In this document: in pieces, positions 5,712 to 36,559 of the stretch | Layout of the letters: every line of letters begins with the position of its first letter | How positions within the stretch are numbered: the first letter of the stretch is position 1 | IMG/VR virus record: IMGVR_UViG_3300010883_019285 | Location: 1-42,815 of that record | Origin: a virus | DNA length: 42,815 nt | Reading direction: 5' to 3' (one strand) | Notes under the pieces: model-generated | What the model was told of the DNA's origin: nothing | The model's database searches: none | The model's input: only the letters and a program-made list of their open reading frames with translations | Program-made: the position numbers and the translations under genes

Positions 5712-8700
5712 ATGTCAAAAGATTTTAGAATAAAACAGTTAAGAACCTCTCAAATAATCGTGTCAGGGTCAGCAGTGGGTACGTCTCCTAGCGCAATGAT
5801 GTATTCAGCATCAGCTGCGACTGACGTTGATGGAAATTATAATGCTGATTTATTAAGAAATGTAGGTACAGACGTCTGGTATTTCGTTTCGGGTTCGAAA
5901 CATTCTGTTTCTGGATCAGCTAGAAACGAAGTAGTATTATTTGGCGGTGACGTGGTCATTTCCGGAACACTTTTTGCTGAAAAACAAGTAATAGAGGTTG
6001 ATTTAAGTCAGACATCAGACTTGTTTTTGTCCGGAGCAATTGTTTTAGGTGATCAAAGTGCTGGAGCAAATACCGGTCGGGCTGGATTAGCTGACATGAT
6101 TTTAAATAATAGCGGAAGTCTTTTTATGGCTACCGGATCATTATTTTTAGCCACAAGAGACTCGGGGACTTATACGGAAACTGTAATATCTTCAGTGACA
6201 GCAGGGAACGGTTTAGCGAGTCAGCTCTTAGCAGGGGTTGAATCTAGTTTAAATTTAGATATTAATAGTCTCTCAGGGTCATTAACCAATTCGAATATCG
6301 ATACCGCAGATTTGTTCGCAGTAGCAGATGTTTCAGAAACTACAAATGAGTCAAAGAAAATTACTTTAGCACATGTAGCAGCAAAGCTAGCTGGCGCCGG
6401 CCTGGCTTCAACAGCTGGGGTTGTTAATACAGATATTTCAACATTAACTGCGGCTGACATTGACGTAGCAGCAGATTTAATTACTTTTCATGATACTAGC
6501 GGAACGCCAGCAACTAAAAAAGCTTCAATAGGATCCTTGATATATGCGCTTACAGGGTCTGGTGTAGGAAGATCAGCTAGTAACAAATTAACATTAGATA
6601 TCAATGCTCTTGGAGCTGATGGTAACGCCGGCAATCTGTCTGATGCAATTGCTTTAGCTGATGCATCTGATTCGAATGTTACTAAAAAAATAACAATAAC
6701 ACAATTAAAATCATTAGTTGATACAGATACAACTTATACAGCCGGAGATGGTCTAGACTTGTCGGGAACTACTTTTAGTACTGATCTTAAAGCTAACGGT
6801 GGTTTGCTGATAGACAGTACGGAAATAGCAATTGATGATAGTAAAGTTGCAACACTTACAGGGTCAGACTTCTCCGGAGTGGTTATCGCTAGTAATTCTT
6901 TAACGGCGTCTTTTGGTTTGCATGTCGCAGAATACATCAGACACATCTTCGACGCAAACACCCACGCACGCTTTCAGCCAGATCTATTAGAATTAACTGC
7001 GGGTGGAATTAAAGCAATAAAGATGTTAGAAGATGTTGCAAATTCAGTAGTAGAAATCAACCCAGATTCAAATACAAATCTAGATTTTGTAGTTAAAACA
7101 GTATCTGAGCCTAAAATGATAAACGTTAACGCTGGCCTAGACTATATTTCAATAGGGGACGATGCCGGTATAAAACCTGATATGCATCTTTATGTTTCTG
7201 GTTGGAATGGCGGTGCGGCAGAGGCTGTTCACACCGGAGTCACTGTGTTTGAAGGAGACGTCGTTTTTAGTGGAAGTTTATTAACCGGCGGTCATGGAAT
7301 AATTGATAAAACTTCGCTTGCACAAAACGGAACATTTGGCGCCGGCTCTGCAAATGTCCCGGTAGCTTCCGGAACTGATGCCGTTGCTATAGGGTTAAGA
7401 GCCAAAGCAACCGGAAATTATTCATTAGCAATCGGATCGAGTGAAACAAATAATACGGACGCAACAGCAGCTCATTCATTAGCAATTGGCGGTGACGATG
7501 CAACAGCATCTGGAGCATACGCTTCGGCAATCGGAGGATCAGGTAATACAGCAACCGGCCAATATTCTGTCGCAATGGGTAGAAACACCGCTGTTGCAGG
7601 GAATTATTCAGTTGCTATAGGCGATAGTTTGGTAACCTATGATAATTATACAACCATTTTAGGATCTAGTACTCCAGCAAACGCAAAAGTTCTACTATCT
7701 AGTTCTCTCGAGGTTAATCAAGCTGCAGCATTTAAATCTGATCTAGACGTTGCAGAAAAAATACGTCATGATGGAGATACGGATACATATTTGAAATTCG
7801 AAGCAGACCGTTTAAGTAATTACACTGGCGGTATTGAAATGTTAGATATGGCATATACTGCAGTAAATAACCGCTATGTTAAAATTATGAAACAAGGCGT
7901 CATCGCTAGCGGGGTCACTGAATTTGAAGGTAACGATATATCATTTTATGTTTCTGGTACAATCGGAAGTTTAAATAGTAGTACAATTAAAGGTACAGCT
8001 CTATTTGGTGGGGATGTTATGTTCTCCGGAAGCATCAATACCACTCAGAATATATCAACGTCTGGTAGCCTTGTATTCGACGCAAATACTTCTATAGTCC
8101 GAGACGGAAACGATCTTAAGTTTGATGATGGAAATAATACGGTAAAAACTCTAACCCAACTAGCTTCAACAGGAGATTCATCAGCATTCCATCTAGGAGT
8201 GCATGGAGGCTCCAATGATTCAAAAATGGCTTCATCGGCATCGTTTGCTCTTGCGGGTACTCAAGGAGCAGACCATTATACAGAAAATATCGGATCAGAC
8301 GTACTTTTGTATGTTTCTGGTGGGTTTCGCAGCGACACGGCTGCTTTTGGTAAAACAGCATCAGTATTCGCTGGAGGGGTAGTTTTCTCAGGTTCAGCAG
8401 ATTTCTTTGGCGCAACAACTAGTCTTATAGGTGTTAACGCTCTTTCACTGACAGGAAGCCAAAGTTTAAAAGTGCCGTTGATAATAGATGGTACTGGCGC
8501 AGTTATCAACATGGCGGCACAAAAGCTTTCTATCGGAGCAAGTCTATCAACTCCCGATGCGAATAGTGCAACGTTGACAATAAATAAAAACACAGCTACA
8601 CAAGCCGCAGCTGGAAACGTTAACAACGAATTTCAAATATTACTCAAAAATCTAGATGATGGAGACAATTCATTCTCAGGAATAGCGTTTGATTCCGGAA

Positions 8701-10739
8701 CAGAGACAGATCCGGATAGTATCGGTGCTGCTATACGTGGCGAAAGAGATTCAACAGCCGGCTCAAATATGGCTTTGCACGATACGAATCTTACGTTTGC
8801 AACAAACGATGGTGGCGATGGTGGTCTTACGGAAAGAATGAGAATTACTCATGACGGAATTGTTGAGATCGCCGGTGGTACATTAGCGTTTGGTAATGGT
8901 CAAAATGCAGCAATTGACGTTTCAGACGTTTCAGGTACAGACACCGCCGGAAAAACATTAAGCATTCTCGGAGGAGCATCAACCGGTACAGGCGCCGGCG
9001 GCCAAATCGAATTTAAAGTTACGCCGCCAGCAGGATCTACAGGGGCAGGGGTTAATTCTCATCTAACACTGTTAACACTTCCATCAACCGGAGTTGCAAC
9101 GTTCGCAGGGTCAATTCAGATACCTAACGGCGAAAGTCTTAAAAATGGCGATGGTGAAAGCGTTATTACAATTGATGCAAATCAAAATGTAACAGTCTTG
9201 GGCGATCTTACAGTCGCAGGAAACGATATAAAAGACGCCAGCGGTAATACGGCATTAACGTTCGATGGAACCTCCGGTAATATTACCAACGCTGTAACAT
9301 TTAGTGGTACTCAAATACCAGTGTTTTCCGGAAATAACGGCGTTAAGTTTGCCAATAATTTAATTCACGATGGCGACACAGATACTAAGATCGCCTTTAC
9401 TACGGATCAAATAGATTTTACGGCTGGTGGAGTCGCGTTTATGATATTAGACGAAGACACACAGAATAAAGTCGTATTTAACGAAGGCGGAGTCGACGTT
9501 GATTTTAGGATTGAATCTAGTAACGAAGATCATATGTTCTTTGTCGATGGCGCTACAGATCGTATAGGTATAGGGATCGCAGCGCCATCGACAACAGTTG
9601 AAATTAAAGGCGCCACGGCAGATCAAACTACACTTCAATTAAAAGATTCAGCAAGCTCTGATGTTATAGTTAAAATGTATCACTTGTCTGGTGAAGATGA
9701 TGGCATAATCGATGTGCTTGCCAACAACGTTGTTACTGCAAGGATTAACTCAAACGGAGTATCGATGCTCGGCGGTGACGGGGGCTCTGCGGCTGCAGAA
9801 CCTGGTCTGTTGATCGTCCGTCGAGATTCATCAACTGCTGCCGATGACTTATTAGGCGCAATTGGTTTTGATTCATCCGATGGGAATGTACCATCATCTG
9901 TTCTAGAGGCATCTGCATTTATCGCAGCATATGCAGCAGAAGACCACTCCGCCAACGACAAAGGAGGATATCTCTCATTAGGACTTTCGATTATCGACGA
10001 AAACGATGATGTTGCTTCCACAGAAATAATGAGAATCACCGGTGAAGGTGCCATTATCACAGGAAATGATGGTGGTGATGCTGCCCTTAAGGTTATAGGG
10101 CGATCTAGTGGCGCACATCCATTAGTTAAAATTATAAGTAACGATACTGAAATGGACGCTAACCAAGCGTTACTTGAAATAAATAGTGAAGATACAACAA
10201 TGGGCTCTGATAATTTCTGGGTTGAGTTTACACAAGGCGGAGGCTCTACAATCGTAGGCTCTATTAACTCTGAAGTCGCCTATACTACATTTACGGGACA
10301 GCATCCAACAAAATTGCTAAATAATCAGATCCCAGCCGAAGGATCAATTATAATATCAACAGGTAACGTACTCCATCGCGATGGAATATCAAATGCTTGG
10401 GTTGAAACAACCACAACAACAAAGGCAAAAGATAAAGCCGTCGTAGGAGTATATAGAGGCGCTTGGACAGACAACGGGTCAATACCAGGGCAGCTATATG
10501 TATATAACGCTATTGGTGAGGGTCAAATATTAGTTACAGATATTGGCGGAAATATAGAAGTCGGAGATTATATTTGTTCAAGTATCCGTTCTGGTCACGG
10601 TATGCTACAAGACGACGATTTACTTCACAATTATACTGTGGCAAAAGCAACAGAGGCTATTGACTGGTCGGACATCGTAATCGATGCAAGTCTTGGATTT
10701 AAATCCAAGTTAGTCGCATGCACATATCATTCAGGGTAA
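5712..10739 (+). CDS. Giant repeat-built tail fibre protein, 1,675 residues
   Basis: AGGAG precedes the ATG. The protein is a mosaic of short phage-fibre repeats rich in Ser, Gly, Asp and Thr. The GGDVVISGT/EGDVVFSGS/GGDVMFSGS motif recurs at about residues 75, 510 and 770. Three copies of an HDGDTDT...TGG unit lie near residues 407, 682 and 1216. A YadA-like stretch with SxAIG motifs covers about 554-650. MRI-type repeats (ERMRITHDG) lie in the second half. The C-terminal ~130 residues (VVGVYRG, GQILVTDIGG, GDYICSS) look like the compact end domain seen on marine phage fibres, possibly a Peptidase_G2/chaperone-type domain; that name is tentative. It likely forms a long trimeric fibre used for host recognition. 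It directly precedes the sugar island. Confidence 0.87.
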   Translation: MSKDFRIKQLRTSQIIVSGSAVGTSPSAMMYSASAATDVDGNYNADLLRNVGTDVWYFVSGSKHSVSGSARNEVVLFGGDVVISGTLFAEKQVIEVDLSQTSDLFLSGAIVLGDQSAGANTGRAGLADMILNNSGSLFMATGSLFLATRDSGTYTETVISSVTAGNGLASQLLAGVESSLNLDINSLSGSLTNSNIDTADLFAVADVSETTNESKKITLAHVAAKLAGAGLASTAGVVNTDISTLTAADIDVAADLITFHDTSGTPATKKASIGSLIYALTGSGVGRSASNKLTLDINALGADGNAGNLSDAIALADASDSNVTKKITITQLKSLVDTDTTYTAGDGLDLSGTTFSTDLKANGGLLIDSTEIAIDDSKVATLTGSDFSGVVIASNSLTASFGLHVAEYIRHIFDANTHARFQPDLLELTAGGIKAIKMLEDVANSVVEINPDSNTNLDFVVKTVSEPKMINVNAGLDYISIGDDAGIKPDMHLYVSGWNGGAAEAVHTGVTVFEGDVVFSGSLLTGGHGIIDKTSLAQNGTFGAGSANVPVASGTDAVAIGLRAKATGNYSLAIGSSETNNTDATAAHSLAIGGDDATASGAYASAIGGSGNTATGQYSVAMGRNTAVAGNYSVAIGDSLVTYDNYTTILGSSTPANAKVLLSSSLEVNQAAAFKSDLDVAEKIRHDGDTDTYLKFEADRLSNYTGGIEMLDMAYTAVNNRYVKIMKQGVIASGVTEFEGNDISFYVSGTIGSLNSSTIKGTALFGGDVMFSGSINTTQNISTSGSLVFDANTSIVRDGNDLKFDDGNNTVKTLTQLASTGDSSAFHLGVHGGSNDSKMASSASFALAGTQGADHYTENIGSDVLLYVSGGFRSDTAAFGKTASVFAGGVVFSGSADFFGATTSLIGVNALSLTGSQSLKVPLIIDGTGAVINMAAQKLSIGASLSTPDANSATLTINKNTATQAAAGNVNNEFQILLKNLDDGDNSFSGIAFDSGTETDPDSIGAAIRGERDSTAGSNMALHDTNLTFATNDGGDGGLTERMRITHDGIVEIAGGTLAFGNGQNAAIDVSDVSGTDTAGKTLSILGGASTGTGAGGQIEFKVTPPAGSTGAGVNSHLTLLTLPSTGVATFAGSIQIPNGESLKNGDGESVITIDANQNVTVLGDLTVAGNDIKDASGNTALTFDGTSGNITNAVTFSGTQIPVFSGNNGVKFANNLIHDGDTDTKIAFTTDQIDFTAGGVAFMILDEDTQNKVVFNEGGVDVDFRIESSNEDHMFFVDGATDRIGIGIAAPSTTVEIKGATADQTTLQLKDSASSDVIVKMYHLSGEDDGIIDVLANNVVTARINSNGVSMLGGDGGSAAAEPGLLIVRRDSSTAADDLLGAIGFDSSDGNVPSSVLEASAFIAAYAAEDHSANDKGGYLSLGLSIIDENDDVASTEIMRITGEGAIITGNDGGDAALKVIGRSSGAHPLVKIISNDTEMDANQALLEINSEDTTMGSDNFWVEFTQGGGSTIVGSINSEVAYTTFTGQHPTKLLNNQIPAEGSIIISTGNVLHRDGISNAWVETTTTTKAKDKAVVGVYRGAWTDNGSIPGQLYVYNAIGEGQILVTDIGGNIEVGDYICSSIRSGHGMLQDDDLLHNYTVAKATEAIDWSDIVIDASLGFKSKLVACTYHSG
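6932..9460 (+). repeat. Three-copy HDGDTDT/TGG protein repeat in the tail fibre gene
   Basis: Copies begin near 6932 (ANTHARFQPDLLELTAGG), 7758 (DGDTDTYLKFEADRL) and 9359 (DGDTDTKIAFTTDQIDFTAG). Each has the pattern Asp-Thr, Phe, Asp, Ile/Leu, then GG followed by a hydrophobic segment. They are diverged at the DNA level, so this is an old protein repeat rather than a recent tandem duplication. Confidence 0.6.
7372..7660 (+). repeat. YadA-like left-handed beta-roll repeats in the tail fibre
   Basis: Successive units carry the S-x-A-I/M-G motif (YSLAIGSS, HSLAIGG, YASAIGG, YSVAMGR, YSVAIGD) at regular spacing of about 14-22 residues. This is the head-repeat pattern of trimeric autotransporter adhesins, also seen in phage fibres. 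It predicts a trimeric beta-roll in this part of the fibre. Confidence 0.7.
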
Positions 10740-19238: not shown

Positions 19239-20285
19239 ATGCGATTTTTTGCTATTGATTGTCATGTTGGAATTAACGATATAAAGTCTATTTTTGAAAG
19301 TTTGGGCCATTCTTTAGACGTTTGGTCTATTTCTCGAGCCGCTCCATTAATGGGCTGGGAACAACGAGAACCAGAAATTCTAAACAATAAAAGCTGGTAT
19401 ACGTTTAATCATGAAATGGCATATGCATTTGCAGAAAAATATAAAGACGTTCTAGAAACGTACGACGGGTTTGTTTGCTTTTACCCAGCTAGCTTTTCTT
19501 TGATATATAGTTTTTTTAATAAGCCTATTATAATTCAAGCGCCAATAAGATCTGACGTTCCATTTCATTTTTCACCTAAATATTCTGAAGCTTTTTATGA
19601 TTTTCTTAAGGTCAACATTGCAGCAAAGAAAATAATCCCATTAGCTAACAATAGAGTTGATAAAGAATATAACGAGATATTAACTGATAGTTCTTGGAAA
19701 TTAATACCAAGTTTATGCGATTATGTCTCGGCGAAATATAGGCCAAATCAAAACAAATGCATATATTCTACACAGGATCGATTCGAACTTCCTAAAATAA
19801 AAGGATTAGAGTTAGCATCAGGGTTTTCCGGAAAGTCTTGGGACGAAATATACTCTTATAAAGGGATAGTTCATATTCCGTATCATAATAGCGTTATGTC
19901 TTGTTTCGAACAGTACAACGCCGGCGTGCCTCTTTTCTTTCCTTCACACTCATTCTTAAAAGATTTAAAAACTAAATTTCCTAATAAAATAATGAATGAA
20001 ATGAGTTGGCAGCAGATCGACAAGCGGCAACCGCTGCAACGACCAGAATTTACGAATAAATCAATACCCGATATAGCTAACTGGGCATCTAAAGAATCGT
20101 TTGAATACTGGTCATCAAAATGCGATTGGTATGATGAAGAATGGATGCCTGGAGTCAACCTTTATGATTCTTTTGAACATCTTTCAGAGATGATTAATCA
20201 AAACAACTTTAGTATCCAATCTGGGTTAACTGAAAGAAAAAATAGGATTTTGCATTTATGGAAACAAACATTGGATCAGATTTAA
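19239..20285 (+). CDS. Probable GT-B glycosyltransferase, divergent
   Basis: 348 residues. Two Rossmann-like halves can be made out: MRFFAIDCHVGINDIKSIFE at the start, and after the linker KIKGLELASGFSGKSWDE the segment GIVHIPYHNSVMSCFEQYNA then GVPLFFPSHSF, the position of the donor site. No E-x7-E motif is obvious. The family is uncertain, but its location among transferases supports the call. Its last 28 bases overlap the next gene. Confidence 0.55.
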   Translation: MRFFAIDCHVGINDIKSIFESLGHSLDVWSISRAAPLMGWEQREPEILNNKSWYTFNHEMAYAFAEKYKDVLETYDGFVCFYPASFSLIYSFFNKPIIIQAPIRSDVPFHFSPKYSEAFYDFLKVNIAAKKIIPLANNRVDKEYNEILTDSSWKLIPSLCDYVSAKYRPNQNKCIYSTQDRFELPKIKGLELASGFSGKSWDEIYSYKGIVHIPYHNSVMSCFEQYNAGVPLFFPSHSFLKDLKTKFPNKIMNEMSWQQIDKRQPLQRPEFTNKSIPDIANWASKESFEYWSSKCDWYDEEWMPGVNLYDSFEHLSEMINQNNFSIQSGLTERKNRILHLWKQTLDQI

Positions 20286-21028
20286 TCATCGGCGGATCAT
20301 CCCAGATAGCAAAGTACATGCCGGCAAATTATCATAGAGTTTCCGGAAGATTAATCCCGGATTACGTTTTTAGCCATAAGTGGAAAAGAGTATATATTTG
20401 TTTTTCAGAGCAAAGAACATCACTAGCTAACGACAAAAGCTTTAAATCAGAATTCTATGACGTTAATTTACATAAAACATTGTCTGTTATTAACAAATTG
20501 ACAGCTCAAAAAATAATTTGTTTTTCTACAGCAGAGCTATGGAATATGTGTAATGGCGTTATAAATTTAAATACTCCGTATAATTTTAAAGAAAATTATT
20601 ATACAGAATCTAAATTATTATTAACAACTGCACTAAAAAAAAGAGAAAATGTAATAACGTTATATCCATTCAATTTTAATTCGAAATTCAGATCAGAAAC
20701 ATTTTTGTTTGGAAAAATATTTGATAGTCTTATTAATAACAAAAAAATAGAGATAGGAAGTACATATTATTATAGAGAAATATTGCATGCAAGATACGTA
20801 GCTTCATCGGCGATCACAGCAACTTCCACAAAAATTATAGGATCTGGCAGGTTAATCCACGTTAACGATTATATTAAAGATTTGTACATGCACGCTAAGC
20901 TAGATTATAATAAGTTAGTTATAGAGTCTGAACAATCATGGCGTCCAAACACTACCTTTTGGCTTGATTCTACTGACTGTCAATATAGTTATGTTAATTT
21001 ATTAGAAGATTCTATGGAAGACTTATGA
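20258..21028 (+). CDS. NAD(P)-dependent SDR epimerase/dehydratase-like, short and divergent
   Basis: 256 residues. The Rossmann start is DLIIGGSSQIAKYMP (GxxxxIAKY in place of GxxGxxG), ICFSTAELW carries the catalytic Ser/Thr of extended SDRs, and YYTESKLLL gives Tyr-x3-Lys. TLYPFNFNSKFR corresponds to the substrate-side loop. It lacks about 60 residues compared with GalE-like enzymes and has diverged, so its reaction cannot be named. It starts inside the upstream gene and ends ATGA-coupled to the DegT-fold gene, which suggests both act on the same sugar nucleotide. Confidence 0.7.
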   Translation: METNIGSDLIIGGSSQIAKYMPANYHRVSGRLIPDYVFSHKWKRVYICFSEQRTSLANDKSFKSEFYDVNLHKTLSVINKLTAQKIICFSTAELWNMCNGVINLNTPYNFKENYYTESKLLLTTALKKRENVITLYPFNFNSKFRSETFLFGKIFDSLINNKKIEIGSTYYYREILHARYVASSAITATSTKIIGSGRLIHVNDYIKDLYMHAKLDYNKLVIESEQSWRPNTTFWLDSTDCQYSYVNLLEDSMEDL

Positions 21029-22164
21029 TACCATTAGTAAAAAATACAATTTCAAAAAAAGAAATCGATCATTTATGCGATTGGCTAAAAACCGATCCTA
21101 GGCTGACAAAAGGAAATTTAACAGATTCTTTCGAAAAAGAATGGTCTAAATATATAGGCCGAAATCACAGTTTATTTGTCACATCAGGATCTTCAGCTAA
21201 TTTAGCAGCTTTTTATGCAATGAAGCTCTCCGGAAAACTCAAAAATCTTAAGGTTGTTCTCCCAGCTGTGTCATGGTCGACAACAGTATCTCCAGCTATT
21301 CAGTTAGGATTCGAGCCAATATTGTGCGATTGCAATTTGGTAAATTACGGATTAGATTTAGACCATCTAAAAAGAATAATTGAAGAAGAAGATCCAGGGT
21401 TACTAGTGACATGCAACGTTTTAGGATTTTGTAATGATTATAGCGAAATATTATCAATATGCAAAGAAAAAAATATATTAATTATTGAAGATTCATGCGA
21501 AACTGTCGGAACAGTATATAAAGGTACAAATTCCGGCTGTTTTGGAGATATAAGTACGTTTTCGTTTTATTATGGCCACCACATGTCGACGATAGAGGGC
21601 GGGATGATTTGTACAGATGATCCGGAATTATCGATGATTTTAAGGTCAATACGATGTCACGGATGGGATAGGGATCTTTTAGAAGAAAACCAGCAGCTTT
21701 TAAGAAAAAAGTATTCTATAGATGATTTCCGGGCGTTGTATACTTTTTATTATCCAGGGTTTAATATGAGGCCTACTGATTTGCAGGCGTTTTTAGGTCT
21801 AGGGCAGTTAAAAAGACTTGATACAATGAATCAATCGCGCCATTCGAATTTCATGTATATGAAAAACAAAGATACTAGCAATTGGGCATTAGACGTAGGC
21901 AATTACTCATTCATATCTAATATGGCATATCCAGTACTCAGCTTAGACGCTAAAAAAACAAAAAAAAGACTATCAGAAAAAAATATTGAGCATCGACCTT
22001 TGATTTGTGGATCAATAGGAAAACAGCCTTTTTGGATAGAACGGTATGGGCAAACAAACCTAAAAAACGCTGATTTCGTACATCAGCATGGTATATATGT
22101 CCCAAACAACCCTGATCTTTCCGAAGAAGAATTGAATATAATTTCAAATTGCCTATGGCAATAA
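21025..22164 (+). CDS. DegT/DnrJ-fold PLP enzyme with His for the catalytic Lys (ColD/RfbH-type 3-dehydratase)
   Basis: 379 residues of the sugar aminotransferase fold: TSGSSANLAAFYAMKLSG binds PLP phosphate, LPAVSWSTTVSPAIQLG follows, and IIEDSCETVGTVY holds the Asp that pairs with the PLP ring. The site that carries the Schiff-base Lys in aminotransferases (SFxxxK) reads SFYYGHH, with His185 at the Lys position. This replacement is the hallmark of ColD (GDP-4-keto-6-deoxymannose 3-dehydratase) and RfbH/E1 dehydratases. No obvious cluster-binding Cys set as in RfbH was noted, so ColD is the better model. It probably removes the 3-OH of a 4-keto-6-deoxy sugar nucleotide. Gmd and a ColC-like gene lie downstream. 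The reaction is inferred. Confidence 0.8.
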   Translation: MIPLVKNTISKKEIDHLCDWLKTDPRLTKGNLTDSFEKEWSKYIGRNHSLFVTSGSSANLAAFYAMKLSGKLKNLKVVLPAVSWSTTVSPAIQLGFEPILCDCNLVNYGLDLDHLKRIIEEEDPGLLVTCNVLGFCNDYSEILSICKEKNILIIEDSCETVGTVYKGTNSGCFGDISTFSFYYGHHMSTIEGGMICTDDPELSMILRSIRCHGWDRDLLEENQQLLRKKYSIDDFRALYTFYYPGFNMRPTDLQAFLGLGQLKRLDTMNQSRHSNFMYMKNKDTSNWALDVGNYSFISNMAYPVLSLDAKKTKKRLSEKNIEHRPLICGSIGKQPFWIERYGQTNLKNADFVHQHGIYVPNNPDLSEEELNIISNCLWQ

Positions 22165-23333: not shown

Positions 23334-24257
23334 ATGAAGGTTTTAGTTACAGGAGGGACAGGGATGGTTGGTTCTGCTTTTGCAAAGCATAAAACACACC
23401 ATGATATTATACTAGTCGGATCGAAAGACTACGATTTAACATCATCACACGATACGAAAAGTATGTTTATAGATCACAGTCCGGACGCCGTTATTCATTT
23501 AGCAGCTCGTGTTGGAGGGGTAAAGAGCAATTCGGATTATATAGCTGATTTTTATTGTGACAATATTTTAATAAACACAAATGTACTAAATTCTGCAAAA
23601 AACGCTAATATTACAAAAGTAATTTCTCTTTTATCAACATGCGTCTATCCGGATAAAATAAAATATCCATTAACAGAAGACCATATTCATGATGGAGAAC
23701 CGCATAAAAGTAATTTCGGGTACGCATATGCCAAAAGGATGTTAGACATTCAAAGCCGCGCAATACGCAGTCAATACGGCCTAAAATTCATGACGATGAT
23801 ACCAAATAATCTTTATGGAACTAATGATAATTTCGGCTTGTTCGACAGTCATGTTATTCCAGCAATGATTAGAAAAATATATGAAGCCAAATATTATGGT
23901 CCTGAGGTCGTTCTATGGGGGACTGGCAAGCCGTTAAGAGAATTTACTTTCGCTGATGATATTGCAAGAATATTGATAAAAATGCTAAATGTTGACCACG
24001 AAAAACCAATAAACGTAGGCAATCCAGGGGAATATTCTATTAATTTTATAGCAAAAACAATCTGTAATATTTTTAATTATGATTATAATTTAATTCAGTG
24101 GGATACGTCATTTCCTGCTGGACAGTACAGGAAGCCTAGTTCAAATGAGGTATTCAGGGAAATATTTCCAGATTTTAAGTATACAGATTTAAGTATTGGA
24201 TTAGAAAAAACATGCAGCTGGTTTGCAAAGGAGTATCCAAATGTCCGCGGAGTATAA
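23334..24257 (+). CDS. GDP-fucose synthase/ColC-like epimerase-reductase
   Basis: 307 residues. VLVTGGTGMVGSA is the NADPH-binding site, and HLAARVGGVKSN is typical of WcaG/Fcl proteins. Catalytic residues are in place: Ser101 and Cys103 (LLSTCVYP), Tyr130-x3-Lys134 (YAYAK) and His173 (DSHVIPAM). These match GDP-4-keto-6-deoxymannose epimerase-reductase (Fcl). ColC, which makes GDP-L-colitose from the ColD product, belongs to the same family and has a very similar active site. Sequence alone therefore leaves two products, GDP-L-fucose or GDP-L-colitose. The His-type DegT gene nearby favours ColC. Confidence 0.88.
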   Translation: MKVLVTGGTGMVGSAFAKHKTHHDIILVGSKDYDLTSSHDTKSMFIDHSPDAVIHLAARVGGVKSNSDYIADFYCDNILINTNVLNSAKNANITKVISLLSTCVYPDKIKYPLTEDHIHDGEPHKSNFGYAYAKRMLDIQSRAIRSQYGLKFMTMIPNNLYGTNDNFGLFDSHVIPAMIRKIYEAKYYGPEVVLWGTGKPLREFTFADDIARILIKMLNVDHEKPINVGNPGEYSINFIAKTICNIFNYDYNLIQWDTSFPAGQYRKPSSNEVFREIFPDFKYTDLSIGLEKTCSWFAKEYPNVRGV

Positions 24258-25290
24258 AAGAAAAAACATCTTAATCACCGGCATAGCTGGACTTTTAGGG
24301 AGTCATATGGCAAAGCATCTGGTTAATAAAGGTCATAAAGTTTTTGGAATTGACAATTTATCGGGCGGTTATATAGAAAACGTCCCAGCAGAAGCTAAGT
24401 TTCATAAGGTAGATTTATTAAATCACGAAGCGGTTGGCAGTATTATTAAAGATAATGACATTAACGTTATATATCATTTTGCGGCATATGCTGCAGTAGG
24501 ATTGAGTCCTTTTATAAGAAGATTTAACTATCAGAACAATATATTGGCATCGGTTAACTTAATAAATGAGAGTATAAAAAACAATATCGATAAATTTATA
24601 TTTTCTAGCTCCATGGATGTCTACGGCGCGCAAGAACCCCCCTTTACAGAAGACATGACACCATTACCATTAGACCCATATGGGATAGCCAAATACGCTA
24701 TAGAACTTGACTTAAAAAACGCGTATAGTCAGTTTGGCTTGGATTATACTATAATTAGACCACATAACATTATTGGGCCTCATCAAAACATATGGGATAG
24801 ATATCGAAACGTTGCAGGGATATGGATCCGGCAGGCAATGGCAGGCGAGCAACTGACAATATACGGCGATGGCCAACAACGACGAGCATTTAGCGACGTA
24901 AAATATTATTTAGAGCCTTTCGAAAGTTTGATATGGAACACCGAAACCACTGGACAGACGATTAATATCGGCGCTGATCAAGACATATCAATTAATGATT
25001 TAGCTAACATAGTACAGGATGTAGCTCATGAGCGACTACATATCCGCCCGGTATTAAAGTATTTAGAGGCGAGGGATGAGGTTAAACATATGTGGTGTAA
25101 CCATGATAAGGCAAAGAGCATGCTAGACTTCAGCGATAACACAGACATCTATAGTTTAATTAAAGAAACTTGGGATTGGGCTGTACAAATCACACCTAAG
25201 CCAGTAAAGTATATGGAATACGAAATAAACAAAGGTATATACTCATATTGGAGAAACAATGAATCAGGATCAAATAAAAAAAATAATTGA
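24241..25290 (+). CDS. GalE/WbpP-like NAD-dependent sugar epimerase
   Basis: The start is ATG 24241, seven bases after AAGGAG (24228-24233); the in-frame TTG at 24223 precedes the site. 349 residues. ILITGIAGLLGSHMAKHL is the Rossmann loop, VIYHFAAYAAVG the next motif, SSSMDVYG the Ser site and YGIAKYA the Tyr-x3-Lys pair. The DP-GIAKYA and RPHNIIGPHQN spacing is that of UDP-hexose 4-epimerases and related dehydratases. The substrate is most likely UDP-Glc, UDP-GlcNAc or a related nucleotide. It overlaps the upstream gene by 17 bases. Confidence 0.85.
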   Translation: MSAEYKRKNILITGIAGLLGSHMAKHLVNKGHKVFGIDNLSGGYIENVPAEAKFHKVDLLNHEAVGSIIKDNDINVIYHFAAYAAVGLSPFIRRFNYQNNILASVNLINESIKNNIDKFIFSSSMDVYGAQEPPFTEDMTPLPLDPYGIAKYAIELDLKNAYSQFGLDYTIIRPHNIIGPHQNIWDRYRNVAGIWIRQAMAGEQLTIYGDGQQRRAFSDVKYYLEPFESLIWNTETTGQTINIGADQDISINDLANIVQDVAHERLHIRPVLKYLEARDEVKHMWCNHDKAKSMLDFSDNTDIYSLIKETWDWAVQITPKPVKYMEYEINKGIYSYWRNNESGSNKKNN

Positions 25291-25449: not shown

Positions 25450-26355
25450 ATGGCAAATATAGGAATTATAGGTCAGGGCTTCGTAGGGTCTGCTATAAGA
25501 GAAGGGCTAAAAAACTTTTATTCTGTTAAGGGATATGACATTGATTTGTCAAAATGCTCAAACATGGGTCCAGATTCTAAAAATCATCTTAACGAGCTGG
25601 TAAGTTATAGCGACATTATATTCGTTTGCGTCCCTACTCCAATGAGAAAAGACGGTTCATGCGATACGAAAATAGTAGAAGACGTATTAGAGAAAATATG
25701 CGCGTCAATTCAGAACTACCGTAAGCAGCCAAAATACGCATCGATTTTAGACGGTTTAAAGATTGCAAAAAATAAAACAGTCGTTATAAAATCAACAGTG
25801 CCGCCTGGAACAACAGAAAGATTATCAGAAAAACACCCTAGGATTAATTTGTGTTTTAGTCCAGAGTTTTTAACAGAAGCTAATTCGTTTGATGATTTTA
25901 AAAACCAGAGTCGGATTATAATCGGAGGACTTGGATCTGAGCAAGTTAAAGAGATGTTCCAAAAGCCATTCCCAAACGCAACAATTGTAGTTACTAAGTC
26001 TGAAACAGCTGAAATGGTTAAATATTTCACAAACTGTTTTCTTGCAACAAAAGTAACGTTTGCAAATCAAATGTATGAGATTTGCGAAGCTTCCGGAGTC
26101 GATTATGACAAAGTATGTGAATATGCATTGTATGATGAGAGGATTGGAAAGAGTCACTTAGCTGTTCCTGGCCCGGATGGAGACCGTGGATTTGGCGGAA
26201 TTTGTTTTCCAAAGGATTTGGCTGCCATGATTGCTTTTGCAGATAACAACAATGCGGATAATCATTTCTTAGCTTCTGTAGAGATTTTTAATAACAAGAT
26301 AAGGACCAATAGAGACTGGGAAAAAATGAAAGGAAGGGCAGTATCAGATGACTAA
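25450..26355 (+). CDS. UDP-glucose/GDP-mannose dehydrogenase family, short form
   Basis: 301 residues compared with about 390-440 for the family. The N-terminal Rossmann start is [22 protein letters not shown]-like [12 protein letters not shown] follows, then [12 protein letters not shown] and [11 protein letters not shown]. The catalytic site [10 protein letters not shown] gives Cys252 and a Lys that fits the family. The C-terminal UDP-binding domain is missing. Family members oxidise the C6 hydroxyl of UDP-glucose or similar to the uronic acid. The motifs are intact, so it may be active as a minimal enzyme or with an altered substrate. The next gene overlaps by 8 bases. Confidence 0.83.
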
Positions 26356-27382
26356 AAAACAGAAAACAGCTTTAATTACCGGCATTACCGGTCAAGACGG
26401 ATCTTATCTTGCAGATCTACTTTTAGAAAAAGGGTATAAAGTAGTAGGGGTAAAACGACGTACATCAATTATATCTACACAGAGGGTTGATCATTTATAC
26501 AACAACCCAGATTTTAAAATGATATATGGATCGATGCATTCGACAGATTGGATGTATAAGACATTAAACAAGTATAAGCCAGATGAAATTTATAATTTAG
26601 CTGCGCAAAGTCATGTTAGGGTAAGTTTTGACAATCCAGAAGAAACAGCTGATATTGTGGCGTTAGGAGCTCTTAGATTACTCGAAGCAACAAGACAAAT
26701 GCTGCCAGGCGCTAGATTTTATCAGGCGTCGTCATCAGAAATGTTCGGGGATAACCCAGAACACCCACAGAGCGAGTCGACGGCTCTTATGCCTGCAAGT
26801 CCATACGCATGCGCAAAAACGTTTTCTCATAACATTATAAGGAATTATAGGATATCATATAATATGTTTTGTTGTTCCGGGATACTGTTTAACCATGAGT
26901 CTCCGAGAAGGGGGGAAACATTCGTTACTCGAAAGATAACAATGGCTGCAGCAAAGATCAAGTTAGGATTACAGGATAAATTATATTTAGGAAACCTCGA
27001 GGCAAAAAGAGATTGGGGACATGCAAAAGATTATGTAGAGGCGATGTGGTTAATGCTGCAGCAACCAACACCAGAAGATTTTGTTATCGCTACCGGGCAG
27101 ACTCAAAGTGTAAAAGAGTTTTTAGATTTAGTTTTTAAACTAGCTGATTTAAATGTTGAAGATCACGTAGAGATAGACGAAAGACTGTTTCGTCCTCATG
27201 AGGTACCGTTGTTATTAGGGGACCCTTCTAAGGCTCATGCTGTTTTAGGGTGGAAGCCAAAATATAACTTAAAGTTGCTGGTTAAAGACATGTATCATAG
27301 CGATTTTGAAATGGTAGAGAAGACGGCACGGTCTAAAATGATGAACATATCTCCATCAGCGTACATAACTAACAATATTTAA
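26348..27382 (+). CDS. gmd: GDP-mannose 4,6-dehydratase
   Basis: 344 residues, the normal length. [19 protein letters not shown], the GVKRRTSI nucleotide-binding loop, [13 protein letters not shown], the catalytic SSSEMFG and YACAK, and [20 protein letters not shown] are all present, so this is a safe identification. It converts GDP-mannose to GDP-4-keto-6-deoxymannose, using tightly bound NADP. This is the first committed step toward GDP-fucose, GDP-colitose, GDP-perosamine and similar sugars. No GDP-mannose-forming gene is in the window, so the precursor would come from the host or from elsewhere in the phage. It ends the main run of sugar-nucleotide genes. Confidence 0.95.
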
Positions 27383-34208: not shown

Positions 34209-34736
34209 ATGTCAACTGCAAAAAACTTAAGTACTAGTACAACTGTTACATTTAAATCGGTTGGTTCCAAAATAGCTGCGTACAACGAATCACAAAATAC
34301 AGAAGAGATTCAGCTGTTGCCTATCGGTATCCAGACTCCGCTCGAGCTCAATAACGGTGATTTATTTAAAATGCACTATAGGTTAGAAGATCAAATAACA
34401 GATAATTTGAGAAATTTAATAGCTACAAATAAAGGTGAACGGCTAGGGAATCCTGAGTTTGGAACTAATTTAAAAAGAGTACAATATGATGCACCGAACA
34501 AAGAAGATGCGGAAATAGAGATGATGGCTAAGATATCTGGAGCGGTTTCAAAATTTATGCCGTTTGTTACATTGGTTGATTTTACCACAACTATTCTTCC
34601 GCCATCAATGCTTGATGCATCGACAGATACGGAAGGGTATCCTGCGGGAGCTTTACTAGTGCGGATATCATATACGGTTGCGCAATTAGGTTCCGGAACT
34701 AGGGGCTTACAATTAATCTTACCTATGGGGGTTTGA
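34209..34736 (+). CDS. gp25: gp25-like baseplate wedge protein
   Basis: 175 residues. LIATNKGERLGNPEFGTNLK is the GPW/gp25 hallmark. It is preceded by a helix (DLFKMHYRLEDQITDNLRN) and followed by the family's beta strands, ending VRISYTVAQLGSGTRGLQLI. T4 gp25 is about 132 residues, so this has a longer N terminus. It forms part of the wedge core that initiates sheath assembly. It lies immediately before gp6, as in T4-like phages. Confidence 0.9.
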   Translation: MSTAKNLSTSTTVTFKSVGSKIAAYNESQNTEEIQLLPIGIQTPLELNNGDLFKMHYRLEDQITDNLRNLIATNKGERLGNPEFGTNLKRVQYDAPNKEDAEIEMMAKISGAVSKFMPFVTLVDFTTTILPPSMLDASTDTEGYPAGALLVRISYTVAQLGSGTRGLQLILPMGV

Positions 34737-34738
34737 AA

Positions 34739-36559
34739 ATGGCAGATAGTAAATTACAGAGAAGTTATTTAGCTAAAGATTTTGTCGGATTCAGAAATGA
34801 ATTATTAAATCATGCAAAAATATATTTTCCAAATAATATTCAAGATTTTTCCGAGGCTTCTTTAGGGGGTTTGTTTTTAGAAATGGCAGCGTATGTTGGC
34901 GATTCTATGGCGTATTATCTAGATCATCAATTTAATGAATTAAATTATGAAACAGTCGTTGAAACTGCTAATATAGAACAGCATTTGAAAACAGCAGGAG
35001 TACGTATATCTGGAGCCAGTCCAGCCACTTTAAATATTAGCTTTTACATAAAAGCACCAGCGACTATTGGGATATCAGGAGATTATGTACCAGATTCTTC
35101 TACTCTGCCAATATTTAAAAAAGGAACGCAGGTTTCAACCGCAGCGGGCATCAATTTTGAATTAACACATGATTTAGACTTTTCAGAAACAGATTTAGAT
35201 GGTAATTATGCGGCAGAAATACTAAGCTCAAATAGAAGAAATGGAATACCAGAATCATTTTTCATGATACGTGAGGGGTTATGTATATCTGGCAAGTCTG
35301 TTTCTGAAAACACTACTATACCAAACTCTGATGTACCATTTAGGGAGATACAACTTTCTAATTCTTCAGTGAATTCTATCGATGGGGTATATGATACAGA
35401 CGGTAACGAATATTATGAAGTAGAAAGTTTATCGCAAGACACAGTTTTCAAAGCAGTTGCAAATGACAAATATTCTATGGATGGAGTACGGTTTAATCTG
35501 CAGGTTTTAAATGCTGAGAGAAGATATATCGTATCACAGAGCCTGCAGACAAGATCTTCTACAATACAATTTGGTTCCGGATCTCCAACTAGTTTAAACG
35601 ATGATATTATCCCTGATCCTTCTGAAATGGCTTTGCCTTTATTCGGGAAAACAACATTAACCAAGTTTAGTATAGATCCTAACGCTATTTTAAAGTCTAG
35701 AGCTCTAGGGGTATATCCTAAAAACACGGTTATAACGGTTAATTATCGATATGGTGGTGGAGCATCGCATAATGTGCCGGTCGATTCCGCACGAGGGGTC
35801 GTTGGATTAGATATACTGTTTCCTCCTTCATGCTCAATAACAAATAGGAATTCAGTTATCAACAGCATCGATGTTAAAAACTTTGCTGCTGCAACTGGAG
35901 GTGCTAATGCTCCAAGTCTAGCGGAGCTTAAGTCAATGATACCGGCTTCTAGAAGTATGCAAAATAGAATAGTGACTAGACAAGACTTATTGGCTAGACT
36001 GTATACATTGCCAGCTGAATTTGGTAGATTATTTCGCGCTAGTATCGTTAATAACCCTAACAATCCATTGGCTAGTATTCTTCACGTTATTTCTCGAGAT
36101 CGTTTTGGGAAATTGACAAACGCGCCAGATGCTTTAAAACAAAACTTGTCGACTTATTTAAACGAGTTTAGGTTAATATCATCAGCATTAGACATATTAG
36201 ACGCTGATATAATTAATTTTAAGCTAATAATTAATATAATAGTGCGTCCTGGCGTCAATTCAACGGATGTAGCAAATTCTTTAATAAATGAGTTAATAGA
36301 AAAATTTAATATTAGTAATTTCGATATCGGCATGCCAATAATAGAGTCAGAAATAATTAATTTAATACTTAATATAAACGGAGTTCAAGCACTTGACAGT
36401 GTTAATTTCGTAAGTCAAACAGGAACCATTTTGGATCGTCAATATTCGGATACAATATATAATTTTGATTTAGTTAAATCTAATGGAATGTTTTTTATTC
36501 CTCAAAACGCTATATTCGAAATGAAGCATCCAGAATTCGATATTACGGTGAACATCTAA
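34739..36559 (+). CDS. gp6: gp6-like baseplate wedge protein
   Basis: The start is ATG 34739, seven bases after the G run at 34727-34731; TTG 34733 is the upstream alternative and is too close. 606 residues, close to T4 gp6 (660). The N-terminal part has the baseplate_J pattern LGGLFLEMAAYVGDSMAYYL followed by DHQFNELNYETVVETANI, and the C-terminal half the helical-and-beta part with LINELIEKFNISNFDIGMP. gp6 forms the inner baseplate ring with gp25, whose homologue is directly upstream, so the pair is safe. Confidence 0.87.
   Translation: MADSKLQRSYLAKDFVGFRNELLNHAKIYFPNNIQDFSEASLGGLFLEMAAYVGDSMAYYLDHQFNELNYETVVETANIEQHLKTAGVRISGASPATLNISFYIKAPATIGISGDYVPDSSTLPIFKKGTQVSTAAGINFELTHDLDFSETDLDGNYAAEILSSNRRNGIPESFFMIREGLCISGKSVSENTTIPNSDVPFREIQLSNSSVNSIDGVYDTDGNEYYEVESLSQDTVFKAVANDKYSMDGVRFNLQVLNAERRYIVSQSLQTRSSTIQFGSGSPTSLNDDIIPDPSEMALPLFGKTTLTKFSIDPNAILKSRALGVYPKNTVITVNYRYGGGASHNVPVDSARGVVGLDILFPPSCSITNRNSVINSIDVKNFAAATGGANAPSLAELKSMIPASRSMQNRIVTRQDLLARLYTLPAEFGRLFRASIVNNPNNPLASILHVISRDRFGKLTNAPDALKQNLSTYLNEFRLISSALDILDADIINFKLIINIIVRPGVNSTDVANSLINELIEKFNISNFDIGMPIIESEIINLILNINGVQALDSVNFVSQTGTILDRQYSDTIYNFDLVKSNGMFFIPQNAIFEMKHPEFDITVNI

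Follow-up and report, generated by a model that had tools for sequence, protein, structure and literature searches.

A phage gene cluster with a predicted ColD-like nucleotide-sugar 3-dehydratase carrying histidine at the aminotransferase lysine position

Sugar genes at the locus

The window, meaning the whole stretch of DNA that was analysed, is a 42,815-base virus record from IMG/VR. It has T4-like baseplate wedge genes at 34209-36559 as well as PhoH and an exonuclease. The features on which the analysis centers are as follows.

20258-21028, + strand: divergent SDR-fold protein of 256 aa, whose gene shares 4 bases with the dehydratase gene
21025-22164, + strand: predicted ColD-like PLP/PMP-fold sugar 3-dehydratase gene, an uninterrupted ORF of 379 aa
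21562-21603, + strand: active-site motif SFYYGHHMSTIEGG, residues S180-G193, from the ORF translation
21577-21579, + strand: codon CAC of His185, the residue that aligns with ColD His188 and with the Lys used in catalysis by DegT aminotransferases
23334-24257, + strand: SDR homologue of GDP-L-fucose synthase (Fcl/ColC-like)
26348-27382, + strand: GDP-mannose 4,6-dehydratase (GMD), 450 bits against a TIGR01472 cut-off of 415

The dehydratase gene is surrounded by many glycosyltransferase genes, a PIG-L deacetylase gene and genes for other SDRs, including those at 24223-25290. The Fcl-like and GMD genes lie 1.2 kb and 4 kb downstream of it, respectively. A homologue of UDP-glucose/GDP-mannose dehydrogenase at 25450-26355 is only 301 aa long and is matched in its N-terminal and central domains, not in its C-terminal domain. 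Just upstream of the glycosyltransferase block, 5712-10739 encodes a 1675-aa protein with YadA head repeats that is probably a phage fibre or adhesin. A 403-aa ORF at 919-2130 has a partial GroEL-like match (phrog_5725, residues 126-335).

The protein encoded directly upstream of the dehydratase (20258-21028) has no sequence match in Pfam, NCBIfam, PHROGs or PDB. Its AlphaFold model (pLDDT 89.6) has an extended-SDR fold and matches extended SDRs with E ~1e-12, GDP-mannose 4,6-dehydratase first and also the GDP-6-deoxymannose reductase RMD. Residues Y115 and K119 of the YxxxK motif are invariant in the alignment of the family. The GxxGxxG cofactor motif is not intact and reads IIGGSSQIAK, with IIGxTSQLA in most relatives.

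Histidine at the lysine position

The dehydratase protein belongs to the DegT/DnrJ/EryC1/StrS superfamily by its match to PF01041 (208.6 bits; cut-off 19.8) and by its structure matches. In a phmmer search against PDB, ColD ranks first (2gms, E=2.4e-55), E1 second (3bcx, 5e-44), and the following matches are mostly Lys-type aminotransferases. The ColD entries have YSHH at the aligned site in the wild type (2gms), YSNH in H188N (3b8x), YSKH in H188K (2r0t) and YNKH in S187N/H188K (3gr9). Because the mutant sequences differ at the aligned letter, His185 falls exactly on ColD His188; it is also aligned with the leading His of the E1 HH pair. The sequence-only reading had proposed that His replaces the catalytic Lys of a DegT-fold enzyme and that the ColD and E1 dehydratases have the same change. 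Both proposals hold in these alignments, which place the first His on its ColD and E1 equivalents and not elsewhere. Its residue range for the site, 180-193, also stands, but the coordinates given with it, 21556-21600, cover residues 178-192 and need the correction made above. What chiefly sets 3-dehydratases apart from aminotransferases is the change of the catalytic Lys to His, which acts as both acid and base (PMC8987622).

Relatives were collected from 68 loci in IMG/VR, from annotated phages and from 80 loci in bacterial and archaeal genomes. All 149 that score at least 140 bits against the window protein (71 viral and 78 cellular) have His at the site, a count biased by GHHM-containing seeds in the first scans. 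Below 140 bits, one further viral protein has His and 16 weaker DegT relatives have Lys, most of which are encoded by adjacent genes of the same viral loci. Because of the bias, a second set was fetched through the neighbouring SDR gene, without use of the motif. Three of its loci (L163, L173 and L175) were already among the first records. In this set, all 24 of the ColD-like proteins that reach 140 bits have His. Its flanks vary (FSFYFG-H-HM and FSTYYG-H-HF). The second His is less constant: 148 of 152 proteins have it, and the others have T, Q or A. His185 is inherited from a large His-type family and is not a change within the window gene.

Residues S54, G55, W84, D156, N247, R249 and R324 are also conserved in the family and, by homology, are expected to lie close to the substrate or cofactor. 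The fold and PLP-site residues such as D156 are shared with Lys-type DegT aminotransferases, GDP-perosamine synthase among them. The window protein differs from the Lys-type relatives fetched in having His for Lys and in S54, W84 and R249.

The two types can occur together. In ∼10 viral loci (L010, L015, L016, L024, L027, L039, L044, L066 and others) the His-type gene is directly preceded by a gene for a Lys-type DegT aminotransferase, placing both chemistries side by side.

Relatives, neighbours and alternative readings

ColD is the closest characterized likeness of the window protein. The two are of similar length, share His at the Lys position, and have GMD and Fcl/ColC-like genes nearby. 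In a Foldseek search of PDB with the AlphaFold model, which is full-length with a mean pLDDT of 94.3, ranks 1-9 are ColD chains (TM ∼0.88), followed by E1. Four cysteines bind a [2Fe-2S] cluster in E1 and SpnQ but not in ColD (PMC8987622). Cys193, Cys251, Cys253 and Cys261 of E1 align with C158, R216, L218 and L226 of the window protein, and C158 is found throughout the His-type proteins, including ColD. Like ColD, the window protein thus lacks three of the four E1/RfbH cysteines that bind the cluster, which makes it ColD-like rather than E1-like. It differs from ColD in sequence (∼29% identity), in having Gly184 where ColD has Ser187, and in being phage-borne with another SDR as its partner.

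A maximum-likelihood tree of 130 proteins, built with a quick search without bootstrap and carrying a long-branch warning among Lys-types, separates Lys-types from His-types (SH-aLRT 99). E. coli ColD groups with five cellular proteins (SH-aLRT 100). The window protein is outside this group, in a sister clade of 108 members (SH-aLRT 97) that mixes phages with a few archaea and a very wide range of bacteria. E1 pairs with a bacterial protein that has the four cysteines, and the window protein is outside that branch as well.

In 37 of 72 viral loci, a count that takes in near-identical contigs, the gene immediately before the ColD-like gene encodes a strong Fcl homologue, and the two genes mostly overlap by 4 bases. 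Of 50 viral records, 10 have a GMD above the cut-off and more than 10 others have one just below it. In the isolated cyanophages S-CAM7 (KU686212) and ACG-2014f (NC_026927), genes for GMD, Fcl, a ColD-like enzyme with His at the site and a glycosyltransferase follow one another in that order. As in the window, their operons combine a phage-borne His-type enzyme with GDP-sugar genes, but their enzymes are 33-37% identical to that of the window, belong to another subclade, and have Fcl immediately upstream where the window has the 256-aa SDR. In Chelatococcus, pCO-6 groups manC/manA, gmd and a GDP-fucose synthase gene with the gene for a His-type enzyme.

The overlapping SDR has its own distribution. 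A search of IMG/VR with this family recovered 25 viral loci, of which 23 have a ColD-like gene no more than three genes away from the SDR homologue, most often as the next gene. Among these loci, selected by presence of the SDR, the ColD-like partners include the subclade of the window. Some bacterial relatives have a short SDR gene upstream with one glycosyltransferase gene between it and the ColD-like gene.

We consider it very likely that the window protein is a ColD-like nucleotide-sugar 3-dehydratase of a tailed phage, acting on GDP-4-keto-6-deoxymannose by a ColD-type mechanism in a pathway to a GDP-3,6-dideoxyhexose. An aminotransferase-like protein with the ColD-type His most likely removes oxygen from a GDP-sugar, and the GMD and Fcl-like genes of the window fit a pathway that starts from GDP-4-keto-6-deoxymannose and leads to a GDP-3,6-dideoxyhexose. 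The GMD and Fcl neighbours in phages and Chelatococcus support this substrate. The low identity to ColD and the position outside the E. coli ColD clade weigh against the reading.

A ColD-type 3-dehydratase could instead act on another nucleotide sugar, such as a UDP-sugar, a dTDP-sugar or a GDP-heptose. The sister position to the ColD clade, rather than one within it, is compatible with such a shift, and half of the viral records, most of which are fragments, lack a strong GMD. The several uncharacterized SDRs of the window and its UDP-glucose-dehydrogenase-like gene, together with the distance of the Fcl-like and GMD genes from the dehydratase gene, make another GDP- or NDP-sugar possible. 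GMD and Fcl homologues recur as neighbours among phages and also among bacteria, Chelatococcus being one, which leaves a different substrate unlikely.

An enzyme of the E1/RfbH/DdhC type, a CDP-4-keto-6-deoxyglucose 3-dehydrase (3bcx) that would use a [2Fe-2S] cluster along with a separate reductase, is a much poorer fit and is very improbable. Such enzymes share the fold and the His-His motif, RfbH is the best NCBIfam model for the window protein, and the annotators of S-CAM7 chose this name. However, the RfbH score of 208 bits is half of the cut-off of 423, and CDP-glucose 4,6-dehydratase exceeds its cut-off in none of the 50 viral records. E1/RfbH membership was rejected on this score, the three replaced cysteines and the separate branch in the tree.

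The missing aminotransferase Lys could also mark a decayed or noncatalytic DegT protein. This has very little to recommend it: across 152 diverse proteins His185 is invariant and 28 other positions are at least 97% conserved. Decay was rejected on this conservation and the confident full-length model. The results agree with the sequence-only reading, which took the change as adaptive rather than decay and the rest of the fold as intact. Finally, an ordinary aminotransferase with its Lys elsewhere, as the family annotation would have it, has practically no chance of being correct. No column of the family alignment is both a conserved Lys and Lys in the window, the best-conserved Lys columns (88% and 70%) being Asn there, and with His exactly on ColD H188 an alternative catalytic Lys was rejected; no nearby Lys thus threatens the original proposal.

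Proposed pathway and annotation

The pathway that we infer, from substrate and cofactor state to product and biological use, is drawn by analogy to ColD. Phage GMD would supply GDP-4-keto-6-deoxymannose. The dehydratase would hold PMP noncovalently because no Lys forms an internal aldimine, and PMP would condense with the C4 ketone of the sugar. His185 would take the C4' proton and the C3 hydroxyl would leave; the enamine would then be released and hydrolysed to GDP-4-keto-3,6-dideoxymannose. Glutamate would re-aminate PLP to PMP, and no Fe-S cluster or reductase would be used for the cofactor. Such a 3-deoxygenation with PMP and glutamate is consistent with the GMD and Fcl context.

A reductase step would follow to yield the GDP-3,6-dideoxyhexose, most likely catalyzed by the overlapping SDR, the Fcl-like gene product, or both. 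The simplest reading is that the SDR is probably a dedicated 4-ketoreductase acting on the ColD-type product. If C5 is also epimerized, by the SDR or the Fcl-like enzyme, the product would be colitose, whereas retention of C5 would give a tyvelose-like D-sugar. The many phage glycosyltransferases would use the GDP-3,6-dideoxyhexose on a host or virion glycan.

A broader scenario is more speculative, and we offer it tentatively. In several phage lineages, including one with a 308-kb contig, a ColD-like dehydratase may be co-inherited with a private short SDR that the profile libraries searched do not recognize (20258-21028 in the window). Together with GMD, the pair may produce a GDP-3,6-dideoxyhexose, possibly a D-sugar such as tyvelose derived from GDP rather than CDP, that alters host-surface or virion glycans. 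The viral pairing of ColD and SDR could represent a novel form of the pathway, and the SDR is a lead to an unnamed reductase family.

The change of Lys to His is a documented hallmark of 3-dehydratases and already known. What appears to be new is the viral gene unit. Deposited names hide the presence of such enzymes in a wide set of phages, which was the less expected finding. A search of the literature on colitose with phage or auxiliary metabolic genes, with subscription papers mostly outside its coverage, returned no report of a phage ColD. The expectation that automatic annotation would label the protein an aminotransferase proved correct for its family: PHROG 3139 is named 'aminotransferase', as is the RefSeq protein of cyanophage ACG-2014f, and that of Chelatococcus is a 'DegT/DnrJ/EryC1/StrS family aminotransferase'. 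In S-CAM7, KU686212.1 164022-165155 is named CDP-4-keto-6-deoxy-D-glucose-3-dehydrase yet is inside a GDP-sugar operon, so the nucleotide in this name is probably wrong.

Annotation pipelines merge two enzyme types of this family, 'aminotransferase' and '3-dehydratase', that one residue separates. As a result, the sugars predicted from glycan clusters of phages and bacteria can be mistaken, with an amino sugar given for a dideoxy sugar. The His-type genes point to 3,6-dideoxyhexose synthesis encoded by phages, which would let phages alter receptor glycans.

Other His-type genes were seen in phages. E1-like enzymes also occur, as in Synechococcus phage S-H68 (L153:5827-7122), which has the E1-like spacing of four cysteines, and two loci each have an E1-like and a ColD-like gene (L182:1905-3215 and L183:3390-4724). 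On a contig of 308 kb (IMGVR_UViG_3300044712_002679; L043:9992-12583), the ColD-like gene is split by an intein that includes a LAGLIDADG endonuclease domain, the whole forming an ORF of 864 aa with matches to PF14890 and PF14528. The intein starts right after GHHM, at the catalytic loop.
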